Source of the DNA: Dyella sp. EPa41
Lineage (GTDB): Bacteria; Pseudomonadota; Gammaproteobacteria; Xanthomonadales; Rhodanobacteraceae
Reading direction: 5' to 3'
DNA: 53,940 bases
Assembly: GCF_016586165.1 (NCBI RefSeq)
Contig: NZ_BCPR01000030.1
Location: forward strand, 1 to 53,940
How positions within the stretch are numbered: the stretch's first letter is position 1; each line of letters opens with the position of its first letter. A program made the translations under genes and the position numbers. This document shows, in pieces, positions 33,943 through 42,088 of this stretch. The notes under the pieces were generated by a model. That model saw only the letters and a list, made by a program, of their open reading frames with translations, made no database searches and was not told where the DNA came from.

Positions 33943-34214
33943 TGATGGGTGATGGGTGATGGGTGATGAGCGGTGAGCAATGAGCGATGGGCGATGGGCG
34001 ATGGGCGATGGGCGATGGGCGGTGAGCGGTGAGCGGTGAGCGGTGAGCGGTGAGCGGTGAGCGGTGAGCGGTGAGCGGTGAGCGGTGAGCGGTGAGCGGT
34101 GAGCGGTGAGCGATGAGCGATGAGCAATGAGCAATGAGCAATGCGCAATGCGCAATGAGCAATGAGCGATGAGCGATGAGCGATGAGCAATGAGCGGTGA
34201 GCGATGGGTGATAG
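33943..34214. repeat. Heptanucleotide tandem repeat (about 39 units)
   Basis: Roughly 270 bp built of 7-bp units GATGGGT, GATGAGC, GGTGAGC, GATGGGC, AATGAGC and AATGCGC. A homogeneous block of GGTGAGC (about 13 copies) sits in the middle (about 34020-34110), with mixed variants on both sides. Because 7 is not a multiple of 3, each strand reads open in several frames as a repeated Ser-Pro-Leu-Thr-Ala-His-Arg peptide, but there is no gene signal. It is likely a variable-number locus. Confidence 0.9.
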
Positions 34215-34703
34215 GCAGCGATCATCATCGATCAACGCGACCGAACCACCGGCAGTCACCGGAAACACGCGCAAACACCCCACCCATGCAACGCCCCTCA
34301 CGTCCCTTTGTAGGAGCCCACCCAGTGGGCGACCGCAGCCCATCACCCTTCCCTCACCATCCGCCTGTCGCGAATAGACACCTCCCACCGAGTAACAAAT
34401 TTCGAAGCGGCACACGTAATGCACTGCCTGGAAAGACCACACCGATCCCCCGGCTTTGCGCCGGAAGACCCTGACATCTCACCAGCCCACCGCCGTCAGA
34501 CGCGCCCTCACCCAGGCGGACAGCCATCTCGCCCAACCCTGACAGACGATGCCAACCCTGCTTGTTAGGGTCTGGCGGTCACTCGCGCCGTCTTTCTGCA
34601 GGGCTTCGCGAATGACCATGACCACGATGTCATGAGGCGCGGGCCGCGAGTGCCGGAAACACCCACGACCCGCTAACCATCACCAACTTCGAGGCAGTTG
34701 ATC
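34215..34703. other. Intergenic region with REP element, no gene
   Basis: About 490 bp after the heptanucleotide repeat. Apart from the REP half-element I see only an imperfect hairpin near 34550-34575 (ACCCTGCTTGTTAGGGT). No supportable gene. Confidence 0.4.
34308..34336. repeat. REP-type element
   Basis: TTTGTAGGAGCCCACCCAGTGGGCGACCGC, a half of the REP family seen at 53566-53940, in the intergenic region beside the heptanucleotide repeat. Confidence 0.7.
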
Positions 34704-35643: not shown

Positions 35644-36009
35644 GTGACGTACAAGAAGTTCGCCATACTCACCTCTGCCCTGCTCGCCGGCTGCGCCAGC
35701 TCGGGCACGAAAGTGGATCCCCGTGTCGTCAGCACGTTCCAGCCCGGCATAACGACCATCGCCCAGGTGGAGGCCCAGCTTGGCAAACCGAATGTTTCCA
35801 CCCGATTGCCCGACGGCAGCATCCAGATCGTCTACGCCTACACGCATAAGCAAGGCAGCGGCAGCTGGATCCCCTTCGTCGGCGTGTTCCGAGGCCATGC
35901 CGATGCCAACACGGTGACCGAGTCCCTCACATTCGACCAGACCGGCCTGTTCGTCCAGGCCGCGTCATCCACCTCATCGACACAGTCGGACACGCTGTCC
36001 AGCAAGTAA
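35644..36009 (+). CDS. Small lipoprotein, BamE/SmpA-like fold
   Basis: 121 residues, starting with GTG (35644) after AAGGAA. A lipoprotein signal ends in LLAGC (Cys16), so the mature protein is lipidated. The following TFQPGITTIAQVEAQLGKPNVSTRLPDGSIQIVYAY matches the BamE-like pattern (G-x-T-x-x-x-V-x-x-x-LG-x-P then strands). The tail is Ser/Thr-rich. BamE-like proteins help outer-membrane assembly, but the family is broad. Function here is unknown; proximity to the borosin-type pair is not evidence of a link. Confidence 0.7.
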   Translation: MTYKKFAILTSALLAGCASSGTKVDPRVVSTFQPGITTIAQVEAQLGKPNVSTRLPDGSIQIVYAYTHKQGSGSWIPFVGVFRGHADANTVTESLTFDQTGLFVQAASSTSSTQSDTLSSK

Positions 36010-36247
36010 GCGAAAGCAAGCCCTGGCCCGCGAAGCCTGCCATCCAGGAAAACATCACCAGGGTCAGATTTCACTTTTTCAGGTCATCCCAGTGGCGTCG
36101 GAATGATCACTCAGGAAAGTGCGGTCTGGCCTGGGTTTTGGCGGTCATACCGAAGGGTCGACCGCATCAACGGCAGGAATGCGCATGACTTGTCACGGCC
36201 GCGATTGAACCGGCATCCTCTGCCGACAGCCAGGTCAAAGGAAGACA

Positions 36248-37084
36248 ATGAGCACGAGCCTAACGATTCCAACAGACGACCAGGGGCGAGGCAGCATCAC
36301 TTGCATCGGCCTGGGCATGACACTGGGTTCGCATCTCACCCCGCTTGCGCGCAGCCATATCGAACAGGCCGACGTCGTATTCATGGGGGTGTCCAACAGC
36401 ATTGTCGAGCAATGGCTGCAACGCATGCACAAGGACGTTCGCAGCCTGCAACCCTACTACGGCGAGGGAAAGCCGCGCTCCGAGACCTATCGCGAATGGG
36501 TCGATCTCATGATGACGGAGGTACGCGCAGGCAAGAAGGTTTGCGGCGCCTTTTATGGACACCCGGGCATTTTCGCCTGGTCGCCGCACAAGGTCATCGA
36601 AGTGGCGCGTGCGGAAGGCTATGACGCGCATATGGAGCCCGGCATCTCCGCCGAAGACTGCCTGTATGCCGATCTCGGCGTCGACCCGGGAAGCCACGGG
36701 TGCCAACACTTCGAAGTGAACCAGCTGGTTTTTTTCAAGCGACGGCTGGACCCGACGGCCTACCTGGTGCTTTGGCAGGTTGCCATGATCGCCAACGAAT
36801 CCATCTCCAAGACAGATGCCTCGGCAGCCTACAGGGAGCTGCTCGTCGATCGCCTCAGCCGCGACTATCCACTCGACCACGAAGTCATCGTCTATCGCGC
36901 CGCCACCTTGCCCATCGAAAGGCCACGCATCCGCAGGGTGCCGCTAAGCGATCTCGCCACGATGCCGATGACTGCGGAGGAAACGGTCGTTGTGCCTCCG
37001 GCAGAAGCACTCCAGCGGGATGAAGAATTCATCCGCAGAATGGAGGCGCTGCACGAACTGCAAGCAAAACGCGGCACGGCCTAG
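36248..37084 (+). CDS. Split-borosin-type peptide backbone alpha-N-methyltransferase (tetrapyrrole methylase fold)
   Basis: 278 residues. The start of the fold, SITCIGLGMTLGSHLTPLA (16-34), is a tetrapyrrole-methylase SAM site. It carries borosin-type marks: PYYGEGKPRSETY (69-81) gives Tyr71, Arg77 and Tyr81 at the spacing of the catalytic Tyr/Arg residues I recall for the omphalotin enzyme OphMA. It also has FYGHPGIFAWSPHKVIEVA (102-120) and PGISAEDCLYADLGVDPGSHGC (131-152). These proteins methylate backbone amides of a ribosomal peptide with SAM. The fused precursor found in fungal borosins is absent; a separate small ORF follows 115 nt downstream, as in the Shewanella SonM/SonA pair. Family assignment is from remembered motifs. 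Confidence 0.85.
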   Translation: MSTSLTIPTDDQGRGSITCIGLGMTLGSHLTPLARSHIEQADVVFMGVSNSIVEQWLQRMHKDVRSLQPYYGEGKPRSETYREWVDLMMTEVRAGKKVCGAFYGHPGIFAWSPHKVIEVARAEGYDAHMEPGISAEDCLYADLGVDPGSHGCQHFEVNQLVFFKRRLDPTAYLVLWQVAMIANESISKTDASAAYRELLVDRLSRDYPLDHEVIVYRAATLPIERPRIRRVPLSDLATMPMTAEETVVVPPAEALQRDEEFIRRMEALHELQAKRGTA

Positions 37085-37199
37085 CGAAGCCGGGGGCACA
37101 GGAAGCCAAACCCCGCCTGTGATATGTAAGCGAAGCGCCGGCTGTTGACAGATGGCTTGGCGCGCAAAATCCATCGACAACCAACGAAAGGAACGTCAC

Positions 37200-37433
37200 A
37201 TGGCTGACACCATAGAACTGCTGGAAGCAATCGGCCGCAACGCCTCCCTGCGACGTGCATCCCCGCAGGCGCTGGCTGCCGCTCTTGAAGGCGCCAAGGC
37301 GTCCCAAGCCTTGACGGCTGCAGCGGCAAGCGGCGACGCCTCGCACCTGAGCCAGGAATTCGGTGACATCGATCTCTTTCCGCCCCAGGTCACCCAGGGA
37401 ATCGCAGTGCAGCTTTTCGCGGTACAGCTTTAA
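37200..37433 (+). CDS. Putative split-borosin precursor peptide (77 residues)
   Basis: ATG at 37200 with AAAGGAA 7 nt upstream, stop TAA at 37433, then an intrinsic terminator. The N-terminal part (1-55) is Ala-rich and helical: MADTIELLEAIGRNASLRRA (1-20), then AAALEGAKASQAL and SGDASHLSQEFG. This resembles the helical borosin-binding domain of SonA: the spaced pattern 'L-x-x-(I/L)-G-x-(D/N)-A-x-L' and 'GD-x-x-x-L' both match what I recall. The C-terminus DIDLFPPQVTQGIAV (56-70) plus QLFAVQL is a plausible core rich in Val, Ile, Leu and Gln. AVQL occurs twice (69-72, 74-77). No other tailoring gene is next to it. Confidence 0.8.
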   Translation: MADTIELLEAIGRNASLRRASPQALAAALEGAKASQALTAAAASGDASHLSQEFGDIDLFPPQVTQGIAVQLFAVQL

Positions 37434-37945
37434 AGCAATCATTCGATGCACCGCCTAAAGAAGCCCGGAGCTATCCGGGCTTTTTTTGGACAACGCACGC
37501 CACCACCCCTGCCCCCGTGCATGGGGCATGGCTTCATCCGCGCACAGACTCAACGCATATTTCCGTACAAGTAACCACCCTCCTCATAGCCGCCGGACTC
37601 AACCCATTCTTTTTCAGGAGCCACCTGAAGCGGGCCATTCCCGATTGGGGCGTCGAAGATCCACGCGGACGCACAGGCCATCAGACCTGGCCCGGGGAGA
37701 ACCACCGACTAGCGATTGGCCTGAGTCGGGCGTTTCGCGAAAGGTTGTAACGAGTACAGACGGCAGCATCGCCGCCGTGACCCATGTCGCGCTTTCGATG
37801 ACTCGTACCTAGCCGTGCGAGCTATGACGTTTTTCGGGATTGTCCGTCCGTGATAGGTCATGCACGTTGGTACCAATCAACGATAAGCACCACCCAAAAG
37901 CGGCGACTCCTTAGTTGCGTAATCGCATAAAACCGGGGACAAATA
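37434..37945. other. Intergenic region between the precursor gene and the RHS gene
   Basis: After the terminator, about 450 bp without a supportable gene. I looked for a further small precursor with the Ala-rich leader pattern and found none. GC content falls towards the RHS gene. Confidence 0.45.
37461..37487 (+). terminator. Intrinsic terminator after the borosin-type precursor
   Basis: AAGCCCGGA / TCCGGGCTT, a 9-bp stem with GCTA loop followed by TTTTTTT, 28 nt after the precursor stop. It bounds the methyltransferase-precursor unit at its 3' end. Confidence 0.92.
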
Positions 37946-40900
37946 ATGAGCACCATGGGTATCGCAGGGATGCTTCCCTTTCGTACCGTCATAAGCTTTG
38001 TGCACGGAACGCTTAAACGTCTGAGCTTGAAGTTGAGGGTAAAGTCGAGAGAGTGCCTCGCGTGTCAATCGCCCCTTGATGACTCAACCTCTTCCTCCGG
38101 CGCACGGCTGGCAACTTCTCCTCTTTCTCGGCTACGACTATTACTTCCCCTATTTGTGGCTATCGGCCTCGCAACGGGTATCGCGCAAGCGCAGCACGCG
38201 CCGGTCATTTTCTACAACGTGCCTAATTGGACGTCCGATTATCTGCACGTCAGGTATGCGACACCGCTCGAAGCCATTGTGGTGCCATGGGACGCAAACC
38301 AATGGAAATGCCTTGACGGCGAGCCTGGTTGGGCCTTTGCCGGAATGTATGCAGAGCATGTATCAGGATACGAAGACGGCACCTTTTACAATGCGTATTA
38401 CTATCACAAGAACGAATTTACTTGCATCATAGACAGCGGGCCGTATCCAGATGGCGCCACGGCCCGAAGGTACGCCTACTGTGCTGGTACCGATGTGTGG
38501 GGAAACTCGGCAGATCAGTACGGGTATTCGGCGGACCAATTTCCGAACAGCATGTGTCCAAAGCCTGCCGTCGATCCCGATAAAAGTCGTGGCGTGCCCA
38601 CATGCCCATGTAAAGTGGAGGGTGACCCGGTCAACCCTTCCACGGGCAACAAGTTTGAGTCTGTGGAGATCTATCGCGGCTCCGGTGCTTTTCCGCTGTC
38701 GTTCTCTATTTCATATAACAGTCAACACGGCAACAGCAGCATTCAGGCGCCAAACGACCTTGTCGTGGGCGCACGCCGTGTGCACAACTATCTTCGAATA
38801 ATTCGACTGTATAGCAATACTGTCAGCGCCACAGCTTATGCGCTACGCCCCGACGGCAAAGTCCTTGGATTTAATCAGAGTGGCACGAGTTGGATCGCCG
38901 ATGCCGATGTCGGTGACACGCTGACTGCCATCTACGCCACTGATGGATCCATTAGCGGATGGATGTACACAACTGGAAATGGTGATCAGGAGCTGTACAA
39001 CAGCACCGGGCAGCTGATCGCCCTAACAGCCAAGGGCGACCTCACTCAGACGCTATTGTATAACGCTACCGGCACGTTAGCATCGGTCACCGACCCGGAG
39101 GGGCGCATACTTGCCTTTTCGTACGATGCCAACGGTCGTATCAGCGCCATGCAAGACCCAGGCGGGCTGGCCTATGGCTTTTCGTACGATTCGAACAACA
39201 ACCTCAAAACCATCACATACTCCGATTCAAGCGTTCTCACTCTCGTGTATGGAGAGAATGGAGCTGGCGCCAATGACCTGACGGGAGTGATCGACGAAAG
39301 CAGCAATCGTATCGATACCACGCAATACGACTCATCGGATCGGGCGACATCCACGTCCGGTCCCAATGGGATTGGGAAGACTAGCTTTGGTTATGCCTAT
39401 AACAGCAGCACTGCAACACCTACGTATACGGTTACTGACCCACTTGGCAAGGCACAAACAACCAGCACGGAATATCTCTTGGGTACCGTGCACCCACTAA
39501 ATGTCAGCCAAACTTGTGCAGGCTGCAATACGGTGTCCAAACAGTACAGCTACGACATCAACGGTTATCTTTCGTCGGCCAGCGACTTTAACGGTAACAC
39601 TACCAAGACAACCTACGATGCCAGCGGGTTGCTTAATCAGCAGATTGAAGCCTTCGGCCAAAGCAGCCAGCGAACCACGAACTTCACTTGGAATGCCACG
39701 CTTCGCGTACCCCTGACGCGCACTGTGTCCGGCGGTACGAACACTGTGGTCGCGAAGACATCATGGGCCTATAACGGCACGGGCCAAACCATTGGTCGAT
39801 GCGACGCCAACCCGAATGTTGCTGGCGCCACCAGTTATTCCTGCGGGTCCGGTACAAATGCACCCGCGGGCGTACGCCAATGGACCTACACTTACTGCAA
39901 TGCTGTGGACGGCATCCAGTGCCCATTGGCGGGTATCTTGCTGACAGTGGACGGCCCGCGTACAGACGTAGCGGACGTCACCCACTACAGCTATTACATG
40001 TCTACCGACGAATCAGGGTGCGGCACCTTGGGTGGGGCTTGCCATAGAGCTGGCGACCTTTACCAAGCGACGAACGCCATGGGTCAGGTCGTCACGATCA
40101 TGGCTTACACCAAGAATGGTCAGATCGCACGGCAGTCCAATTCCAATGGTGTCATCACCGACTTCACCTATCACCCGCGTGGTTGGCTGCTGATCCGCAC
40201 TGTGCGTGCCAATGCCGATGGTTCGTCTTCGGCTAGCGATGCGGTGGCCACCATCACCTACAAAGCCTACGGATCGGTCGAGTCGATTACCGATCCCGAC
40301 GGTGTCAAGGTGACTTACACATACGACGCCGCCCATCGCCTAACGGATATCACCGACGCTTTAGGTGATCGAATCCATTACACGCTCGATGCCGCGGGCA
40401 ATAAGACTAAGGAAGAGACCTTCGACCCCAGCGGCACGGTGCGTCGAACCTTGTCGCGCACGTACAACACACTTGGCCAGCTCACGCAGGTTACCGATGG
40501 CCTGACCAACGCGGTGTTCACCGCTGCCTACACCGATAGCTACGATGGGAACGGCAACCTGGTGCATAGCGTTGATGCGTTGGGCATTCAGCGCAAGCAA
40601 AGTTATGACGGCCTCAACCGACTGCAGACCACTATCGATAACTACAACGGCACAGACCAGGCAACCCAGAACACGCAGAGCACCTTCGCCTATGATGCGC
40701 TGGATCGACTTCAAGGGTTCAGCGATCCGGACAGTCTAAGCACGGCGTATGGCTACGACGGCCTGGGCAATGCCACATCGGTGCAAAGTCCGGATACGGG
40801 CAGTGTGACCAACCAATACGACTCGGCAGGCAATCTTACGCAGCATACGGATGCGCGCAGCGTGGTGACTCAATACACCTACGACGCGCTCAATCGTCGG

Positions 40901-42088
40901 AAGCAGATCATTTATCCCGCGCACCCGAATCTCAACGTTACGTACACGTACGACCAATCGGCCCCCATCGCCGGATGCCCTGGCAACTTCAACGTGGGTC
41001 ACCTCACGACGATGACCGATGCCTCGGGCACGACCTCGTGGTGCTACACCAATCAGGGCGATATCCGCGAGGTCAAACAGACCATCAACGGTGTCACTTA
41101 CTTGCACGGTTACGCCTACACGGCCGGTCGTCGCCTCAAGTACCTGCAATACCCGTCTGGGTTTGAACTCCTCTATGGCTTTGATGCCGCCGGCCGCGTC
41201 AACTCCATCGGCTATCTGCAGCAACCCGGACCATATGGCAGCTACACGAACAACACCATCACGCCACTGATCACCGGTGTGTCGTACTTCCCGTTTGGGC
41301 AAGTATCGGGCTATACCTGGGCGTCGGGCGGCCAGTCGGTCGCCCGCGCGATGGACGCCAATGGCCAAGTCACTGACGTCACCAGCGGGGCGTTAAACCT
41401 GCACTTTCGTCGCGACAATGCGGGCAACATTGCTGCGGCTGGTGTTTTACCCGGAGCCAATCCAGCGACCGAAAGTTATCAATACGATCCGCTCAGTCGC
41501 CTCAAAGAACTGGACGATGGCAGTGGCGCCGCCGAGCAGTCCTTTACGTATAACCGTACAGGCGACCGACTCAGTGCAACCATCGGCACATCGCCTGCTA
41601 TCGGCTACACGTATCAAACGAACTCGCATCGACTCAGCGCGGTCGGCGGCCTCTCGCGACCGCTGGATGCCAATGGCAACACGACGGCATTAACCGCACC
41701 CAATGGCCTACTGGTCGGACTCGGCTATGACGACCGCAACTTGTTGACCGCCGTCACCAACGGCAGTTCGACCATTGCCAGTTATCAGTATGACGGGCTG
41801 GGTAACCGGGTCTGGCGAACTATCACCTACCCTAGCGGCGGGCAGATGGCGGCGGTCTATGACCCCGCCGGAACGGGCAACCTTTATGGGGAATACTTCG
41901 CGGCGGACTATCGCGAATACGTGTACCTCAACGGCATCCCTGTCGCATCGGCCACTGATGCCGGTCTCGCCGCCCCTATCGTGAGCTACCTGCATGCCGA
42001 CCACCTAGGCACAGTCCGGTGTCATTCTGGTGTCGAGGGGTGCAGCTTGGTGCACATGCGCAATTTTGCGGCGCCAGAAACGACTTAG
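37946..42088 (+). CDS. RHS/YD-repeat protein, C-terminally truncated
   Basis: 1380 residues. The N-terminal 60 residues are unusual and precede an internal signal-like segment (LLLPLFVAIGLATGIAQA, about 67-84), so the true start may be a non-ATG codon downstream. DUF6531 (GDPVNPSTGNKFESVEIYRGSGAFPLSFSISYNS) leads into many YD repeats (YDANGRISAMQDPGG, YDAAHRLTDITDALGDRIHY, YDSAGNLTQHTDARS). The protein reaches the core-end motif YLHADHLGTVR and then breaks off into 22 unrelated residues. The usual continuation and variable toxin tip are missing. GC content is visibly lower than its neighbours. It is probably a foreign, truncated polymorphic-toxin gene without an immunity gene. Confidence 0.8.
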   Translation: MSTMGIAGMLPFRTVISFVHGTLKRLSLKLRVKSRECLACQSPLDDSTSSSGARLATSPLSRLRLLLPLFVAIGLATGIAQAQHAPVIFYNVPNWTSDYLHVRYATPLEAIVVPWDANQWKCLDGEPGWAFAGMYAEHVSGYEDGTFYNAYYYHKNEFTCIIDSGPYPDGATARRYAYCAGTDVWGNSADQYGYSADQFPNSMCPKPAVDPDKSRGVPTCPCKVEGDPVNPSTGNKFESVEIYRGSGAFPLSFSISYNSQHGNSSIQAPNDLVVGARRVHNYLRIIRLYSNTVSATAYALRPDGKVLGFNQSGTSWIADADVGDTLTAIYATDGSISGWMYTTGNGDQELYNSTGQLIALTAKGDLTQTLLYNATGTLASVTDPEGRILAFSYDANGRISAMQDPGGLAYGFSYDSNNNLKTITYSDSSVLTLVYGENGAGANDLTGVIDESSNRIDTTQYDSSDRATSTSGPNGIGKTSFGYAYNSSTATPTYTVTDPLGKAQTTSTEYLLGTVHPLNVSQTCAGCNTVSKQYSYDINGYLSSASDFNGNTTKTTYDASGLLNQQIEAFGQSSQRTTNFTWNATLRVPLTRTVSGGTNTVVAKTSWAYNGTGQTIGRCDANPNVAGATSYSCGSGTNAPAGVRQWTYTYCNAVDGIQCPLAGILLTVDGPRTDVADVTHYSYYMSTDESGCGTLGGACHRAGDLYQATNAMGQVVTIMAYTKNGQIARQSNSNGVITDFTYHPRGWLLIRTVRANADGSSSASDAVATITYKAYGSVESITDPDGVKVTYTYDAAHRLTDITDALGDRIHYTLDAAGNKTKEETFDPSGTVRRTLSRTYNTLGQLTQVTDGLTNAVFTAAYTDSYDGNGNLVHSVDALGIQRKQSYDGLNRLQTTIDNYNGTDQATQNTQSTFAYDALDRLQGFSDPDSLSTAYGYDGLGNATSVQSPDTGSVTNQYDSAGNLTQHTDARSVVTQYTYDALNRRKQIIYPAHPNLNVTYTYDQSAPIAGCPGNFNVGHLTTMTDASGTTSWCYTNQGDIREVKQTINGVTYLHGYAYTAGRRLKYLQYPSGFELLYGFDAAGRVNSIGYLQQPGPYGSYTNNTITPLITGVSYFPFGQVSGYTWASGGQSVARAMDANGQVTDVTSGALNLHFRRDNAGNIAAAGVLPGANPATESYQYDPLSRLKELDDGSGAAEQSFTYNRTGDRLSATIGTSPAIGYTYQTNSHRLSAVGGLSRPLDANGNTTALTAPNGLLVGLGYDDRNLLTAVTNGSSTIASYQYDGLGNRVWRTITYPSGGQMAAVYDPAGTGNLYGEYFAADYREYVYLNGIPVASATDAGLAAPIVSYLHADHLGTVRCHSGVEGCSLVHMRNFAAPETT

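Follow-up and report, generated by a model that had tools for sequence, protein, structure and literature searches.

A probable split borosin locus in Dyella sp. EPa41

The DNA analysed here (the window) is the 53,940-nucleotide contig NZ_BCPR01000030.1 of Dyella sp. EPa41, which carries two neighbouring genes on its forward strand, one for a methyltransferase of 278 residues and the other for a peptide of 77 residues (Table 1). The original prediction had taken them for a split borosin locus, in which a backbone N-methyltransferase acts on a separately encoded precursor, and judged by their sequences the two do have the characters of the enzyme and the precursor of a type IV split borosin. 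The gap between the two open reading frames (ORFs) is 115 nt, as predicted, and an AAAGGAA stretch stands upstream of each ATG, where the prediction had noted good Shine–Dalgarno sites. An alternative start of the precursor, ATG 37152, would give 93 residues; the conserved part starts only at 37200.

Table 1. Features of the split borosin unit in the window.
Feature	Position	Strand	Basis
Methyltransferase gene, 278 residues, SonM homologue	36248..37084	+	ORF, homology to SonM, kept residues
Split borosin precursor gene, 77 residues	37200..37433	+	ORF, conservation, profile links to SonA, selection
Precursor leader, residues 1–53, putative borosin binding domain (BBD)	37200..37358	+	Helix prediction; boundary from SonA 1–53
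Precursor linker and candidate core, residues 54–77 (DIDLFPPQVTQGIAVQLFAVQL region)	37359..37430	+	Putative register with SonA by ungapped alignment, selection
Terminator-like hairpin with T-run	37457..37486	+	Folding compared with shuffles

The methyltransferase

Among all PDB sequences the best relatives of the enzyme were the chains of SonM (E 2.1e-70, 240 bits), followed by fungal OphMA-type chains (E 1.2e-45 to 1.6e-43, about 157 bits), and the best match outside the borosins was a precorrin-2 methylase (E 1.2e-3, 22 bits); the known borosin enzymes are thus far ahead of any tetrapyrrole methylase, and the closer fit to another tetrapyrrole methylase family that had been named beforehand as a refutation was not seen. 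Enzyme and SonM are identical at 110 of 246 aligned residues, and the homology extends to residue 260 of 278, with no fused clasp or core. The three motifs named as borosin marks, PYYGEGKPRSETY, FYGHPGIFAW and SAEDCLYADLGVDP, are all present in the translation. SonM residues Y58, R67, Y71, Y93, F99, E146, W166 and Q167 correspond to Y71, R77, Y81, Y103, F109, E156, W176 and Q177 of the window enzyme, and in an alignment of SonM with 79 segments taken from the loci, 80 rows in all, each of them is invariant except E146, which is kept in 78. The top-lock residue E173 of SonM is replaced by N183, at a position that holds D in 68 rows, E in six, N in five and I in one. The roles of these SonM residues in holding the core, in binding S-adenosylmethionine (SAM) and in the two locks are those given in PMC8429565.

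The enzyme passes the Pfam cut-off for TP_methylase. It reached 53 bits with the YabN model, for which the cut-off is 525, and at most 18.4 bits with six other curated cobalamin or siroheme models. Of 7318 candidates in the protein database, 5851 were relatives at E ≤1e-3; no name shown for the 120 listed contains 'borosin', and many sources call homologues of the enzyme precorrin methylases. Homologues were found in 64 of 101 genomes, a count that includes the window's own genome and two weak cases (G033 and G091, with matches only at E >1e-4). Compared with its counterpart in L022, one of the nearest kin of the window, the enzyme gene has a non-synonymous rate (dN) of 0.106 and a synonymous rate (dS) of 1.09, giving a dN/dS of about 0.10.

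The precursor and its C-terminus

The 77-residue ORF is a conserved gene under purifying selection. Eleven database relatives were found besides itself, and out of 233 genomes from the bacterial family 123 gave a match to a precursor query. An iterative profile search covering 76 named loci, two paralogous loci of the same genome and the window recovered 89 precursor-family ORFs from a total of 6308 on the two strands. Since all 89 lie on the strand of the methyltransferase, the pairing of enzyme and precursor is not due to chance. Of the 76 named loci, 69 have at least one such ORF next to the enzyme, so the conservation whose lack had been set beforehand as a possible refutation is present. 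The search gave no match in the other seven (L068, L070, L082, L083, L085, L086 and L094), three of which (L068, L070 and L094) run into a contig end, and the small ORFs in L085 and L086 may be divergent precursors.

Between window and L022 the precursor differs at 10, 5 and 27 sites in codon positions 1, 2 and 3 (dN 0.087, dS 0.71, dN/dS about 0.12). For its last 24 codons dN is 0.12 and dS 1.37, a dN/dS of about 0.09, so that in this one pair, and over few codons, the constraint on the C-terminus seems no weaker than that on the peptide overall. Eight peptides were compared, that of the window and the seven database sequences closest to it (P0122–P0128); all eight keep the pattern PQ(V/I)(T/I)Q, and seven of the eight end in AVQL, either singly or as the near-repeat IAVQLFAVQL. 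The precursor of Dyella silvae (L023) has a different ending. In that locus, just 5' of the methyltransferase, a longer ORF with a signal-peptide-like stretch (L023:4338-4874) also carries a BBD-like domain at its C-terminus.

The likeness of the helical leader to SonA, noted in the original prediction, holds by way of intermediate sequences and is remote. The two are tied by a profile containing SonA-like members and by profile–profile comparison; direct searches, one of them with the DTI-only profile A3, did not reach SonA. When 369 genomes of the class were sampled, SonA-like precursors themselves turned up in 3. In an ungapped alignment PQVTQ (62–66) would come into register with the methylated stretch of SonA. 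Helices are predicted at residues 2–13, 15–18, 22–31, 36–44 and 48–54, followed by disorder; SonA is described in PMC8429565 as five helices followed by disorder, with a leader of residues 1–53. A structure model of the precursor had a predicted local distance difference test score of 66–67, alike with 50 and with 88 alignment rows, and a Foldseek search with this model gave as the sole PDB chains at E up to 10 two SonA chains, both weak and not significant as matches. Searched singly, the window precursor had no relative of note in Pfam, NCBIfam or PDB, and at E 0.1 no NCBIfam family matched it, the NHLP and Nif11 types of leader of ribosomally synthesized and post-translationally modified peptides included. 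Weak matches were seen among 50 family members, six to NH_RiPP_Os17, six to NHLP-related families and one to Nif11.

A diguanylate cyclase accompanies the sister units

A sensor-GGDEF diguanylate cyclase of about 590 residues, with TPR-like repeats and a GGDEF domain, was found in 72 of 79 loci, and all five cyclase proteins tested matched GGDEF at E 1.3e-37 or better. As read by eye, the protein has a signal-peptide-like start and a hydrophobic stretch ahead of the GGDEF domain, and GGEEF is kept in both copies of the Dyella genome. It was absent from seven, namely the window with L021, L022 and L023, and the loci L068, L070 and L094, which are cut by contig ends; it is therefore present in 72 of the 76 uncut loci, the four exceptions being the window and its three nearest kin. 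As these four form one clade in the enzyme tree (SH-aLRT 99, quick tree), the absence of the cyclase is most simply explained by one event; Rhodanobacter panaciterrae (L040), with its second copy of the enzyme, counts as another. The order precursor–cyclase is also seen in Undibacterium and Ferrimonas, and in a gammaproteobacterium of another family (L207) enzyme and precursor are followed by a TPR-like protein, the locus ending before any GGDEF domain would be reached.

Besides three enzymes and three precursors, each precursor adjacent to its enzyme, the genome of Dyella sp. EPa41 encodes two full-length homologues of the cyclase. Both sister units, L097 and L098, are complete, and the window unit alone lacks the precursor tail and the cyclase. 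At the place where sister units have the cyclase, the window has a gene for an RHS/YD-repeat protein of 1380 residues (37946–42088). In [Pseudomonas] boreopolis JCM 13306 a unit of the window type is the only borosin enzyme found, and a full-length cyclase was not found there, the query meeting only the GGDEF end of other proteins (from residue 368 of the query onwards). Within that assembly, the window form therefore seems to be kept without a partner cyclase.

The precursor tail follows the cyclase gene in DTI-type precursors

To set the tail against the cyclase, a pool of 171 different peptides from 199 sequences was scored, an acidic tail being at least five D or E in 12 residues and adjacency a position no more than 100 nt upstream of a cyclase. 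The pool yielded 120 DTI-type peptides, those below 60 residues being excluded. Adjacent to a cyclase were 95 of them, 93 with an acidic tail and two (L180 and L183) with a poly-proline tail; none of the 25 away from a cyclase had an acidic tail. The acid criterion alone thus agrees with adjacency in 118 of 120, and a tail defined as acidic or as a length of at least 84 residues agrees in 120 of 120. This limit was set post hoc, after L180 and L183 had been seen, and L172, counted as tail-less, has 83 residues.

The independent changes behind this agreement are few, and tree-aware tests had little or no power. In a quick tree of the 120 peptides, with weak branch support, tail and adjacency each change seven times, with one starred pair. 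A careful tree of 80 precursors, from which SonA-like loci were left out, gave three changes of tail and eight of adjacency, and its four starred pairs were usually one concordant, none discordant and three without difference. The rule is incomplete for precursors of other types, of which 30 were adjacent and acidic, seven non-adjacent yet acidic and five neither. Six precursors starting with MRDTV (L130 and L132) belong to these other types, two of them scored acidic despite a length of only 77 residues, and the acidic tail is absent from all eight SonA-like precursors that adjoin a cyclase.

Two Luteibacter operons combine both forms. The enzyme is followed by six (L131/L032, Luteibacter sp. 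dw_328) or nine (L129, G170 C1:1820500-1829000) tail-less precursors, then a tailed one and then the cyclase; precursor matches, the tailed one included, numbered 7 and 11 respectively. The leaders of these arrays are nearly constant, the short cores vary around PQxxQ and only the last precursor has the acidic tail.

Surroundings of the pair and other loci

The terminator expected to close the unit was found as a 13-pair hairpin running into a T-run; a 62-nt piece folded at -26.4 kcal/mol (z -5.7), which none of 200 shuffles equalled. A consensus terminator scanner did not list this hairpin, in our opinion because of pairing between the stem and the T-run. A scan of 35900–38000 for sigma-70-like promoters found none. 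On its upstream side the pair has a HigA-like gene and an ORF that resembles BamE at a score under the Pfam cut-off. Clustering of neighbours gave no family from the window present in at least six loci besides the enzyme, the precursor and their overlapping frames. Also upstream (33944–34216) is an array of 39 copies of the 7-base unit GATGGGC, whose minus-strand ORFs read as SPLTAHR-like peptides.

Other arrangements were seen elsewhere. Two Luteibacter-like genomes (G170 and G178) have a second borosin locus (L130 2878-4706 and L132 2642-4378), in which three MRDTV-start precursors flank another methyltransferase, with no cyclase within the 8 kb examined. Eleven loci (L065, L067, L069, L073, L074, L075, L077, L079, L082, L083 and L085) encode, on the methyltransferase strand, an acetyltransferase-like protein of about 190 residues, recognized as GNAT by eye only, the gene lying directly 3' of the methyltransferase in the loci inspected. 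In the betaproteobacterial loci L084, L087 and L094 the region 3' of the methyltransferase encodes a small protein that starts like a signal peptide and has a VD-S-DGIF-ALT pattern common to the three.

Discussion

We consider it very probable that the pair is a type IV split borosin pathway, of a cyclase-free branch, in which the precursor backbone would be methylated from N to C. The methyltransferase, probably a homodimer like SonM, would bind the separate precursor by its helical N-terminal leader, and the C-terminal segment of the precursor would enter the active site and be methylated at its backbone amides with SAM. The likely target is P61-P62-Q63-V64-T65-Q66, perhaps together with the hydrophobic near-repeat IAVQLFAVQL that follows, and we infer methylation at residues 63–66 and possibly beyond; by the SonA register the first candidate amides would be Q63 and T65, then V64. 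The window unit would form a branch by itself, in which the cyclase and the long tail that the sister units have on their precursors were lost or had never been present. Our best guess for the product is a backbone-methylated peptide, small and hydrophobic, with its action outside or on the membrane, or as a signal.

One alternative is that the enzyme is a small-molecule methylase of the tetrapyrrole type and the small ORF unrelated to it. The TP_methylase match and the many sources that call its homologues precorrin methylases would fit this; however, the fold is common to the borosin enzymes, SonM and OphMA outscore the best precorrin methylase by far, the scores with the cobalamin and siroheme models stay far below the cut-offs and the precursor is conserved beside the enzyme, which leaves this reading hardly credible. 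An ordinary tetrapyrrole methylase was rejected on the model scores and the PDB ranking, and a spurious small ORF on the database relatives, the conserved pairing and the purifying selection.

Another possibility is that the pair is a decaying paralogue that now makes nothing, as it is the sole one of the three units of its genome without cyclase and tail and has an RHS gene in the cyclase's place. Against this, both frames are intact and kept in L021, L022 and L023, dN/dS is about 0.1 in both genes, the C-terminus of the precursor included, and the only borosin enzyme found in [Pseudomonas] boreopolis is of this type. We regard decay as very unlikely, and the dN/dS values and the sole-enzyme status in that species were the grounds for setting it aside. 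Somewhat less improbable, though still unlikely, is that the precursor is methylated here and serves either of the genome's two units with a cyclase. The two full-length cyclase homologues would allow for this, whereas the window precursor lacks the tail that goes with the cyclase and [Pseudomonas] boreopolis has a window-type unit with no full-length cyclase homologue found.

Returning to the cyclase-free branch, we tentatively propose, as a possibility rather than an expectation, that the split borosins of the Rhodanobacteraceae exist in two coupled states. In one, a tailed and backbone-methylated precursor would work with the periplasmic-sensor cyclase in cyclic di-GMP (c-di-GMP) signalling, and its tail would be a module for docking or retention in the cyclase pathway. 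In the other, precursors with no tail and with short cores of varied sequence, alone or up to about ten per enzyme, would give rise to released peptides, and the window unit would be a cyclase-free, product-making offshoot. The comparison makes the natural role of bacterial borosins testable, with units that have and units that lack the cyclase in one family and in one genome, and with a precursor tail that goes with the cyclase gene. As minimal two-gene systems, the window unit and its [Pseudomonas] boreopolis relative are of use in the search for a mature bacterial borosin and could serve as cyclase-free controls for a role in c-di-GMP signalling.

In the literature searched, which did not include the two main genome-mining papers, we found nothing on the contrast between tailed precursors with a cyclase and tail-less ones, and no natural role for any bacterial borosin. 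Searches for borosin with diguanylate and with Dyella found no papers, and borosin with GGDEF found only PMC11395268. A GGDEF symbol stands among the borosin architectures in the Figure 1 legend of that paper, and so some link between borosins and GGDEF has already been published. The original prediction, which knew of no split borosin described in this bacterial group, needs correction here. Enzymes and precursors are common there and type IV clusters are reported in PMC11285071 to be widespread in bacteria; the window pair is therefore no rarity.

The nearest characterized system is SonM/SonA of Shewanella oneidensis (PDB 7ltc and 7lte; PMC8429565), in which the enzyme is likewise separate, with 263 residues against 278 in the window, and the precursor has 71 residues against 77, both with a helical leader, a predicted one in the window, and a short C-terminal core. 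The same core-holding residues are present, but the window has N where SonM has E173, the likeness of the leaders is remote and the core is different. In the fused borosins OphMA and dbOphMA the methyltransferase domain is homologous, whereas the core is fused to it there and separate in the window. The Rhodanobacteraceae sister units (the two of the same genome, L024–L067 and others) have enzymes of the same family, with about 59–71% identity to that of the window, a homologous leader and the same order of enzyme and precursor, but their precursors carry long, mostly acidic tails and have the sensor-GGDEF cyclase directly after them, and the window has neither. With the Luteibacter arrays the window shares tail-less precursors with a PQxxQ-type core; unlike it, the arrays have several such precursors per enzyme and end with a tailed one and the cyclase. 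The kind of system is thus already known and is common in relatives, and it is the cyclase-free, tail-less form, set against its sister units, that is worth following.
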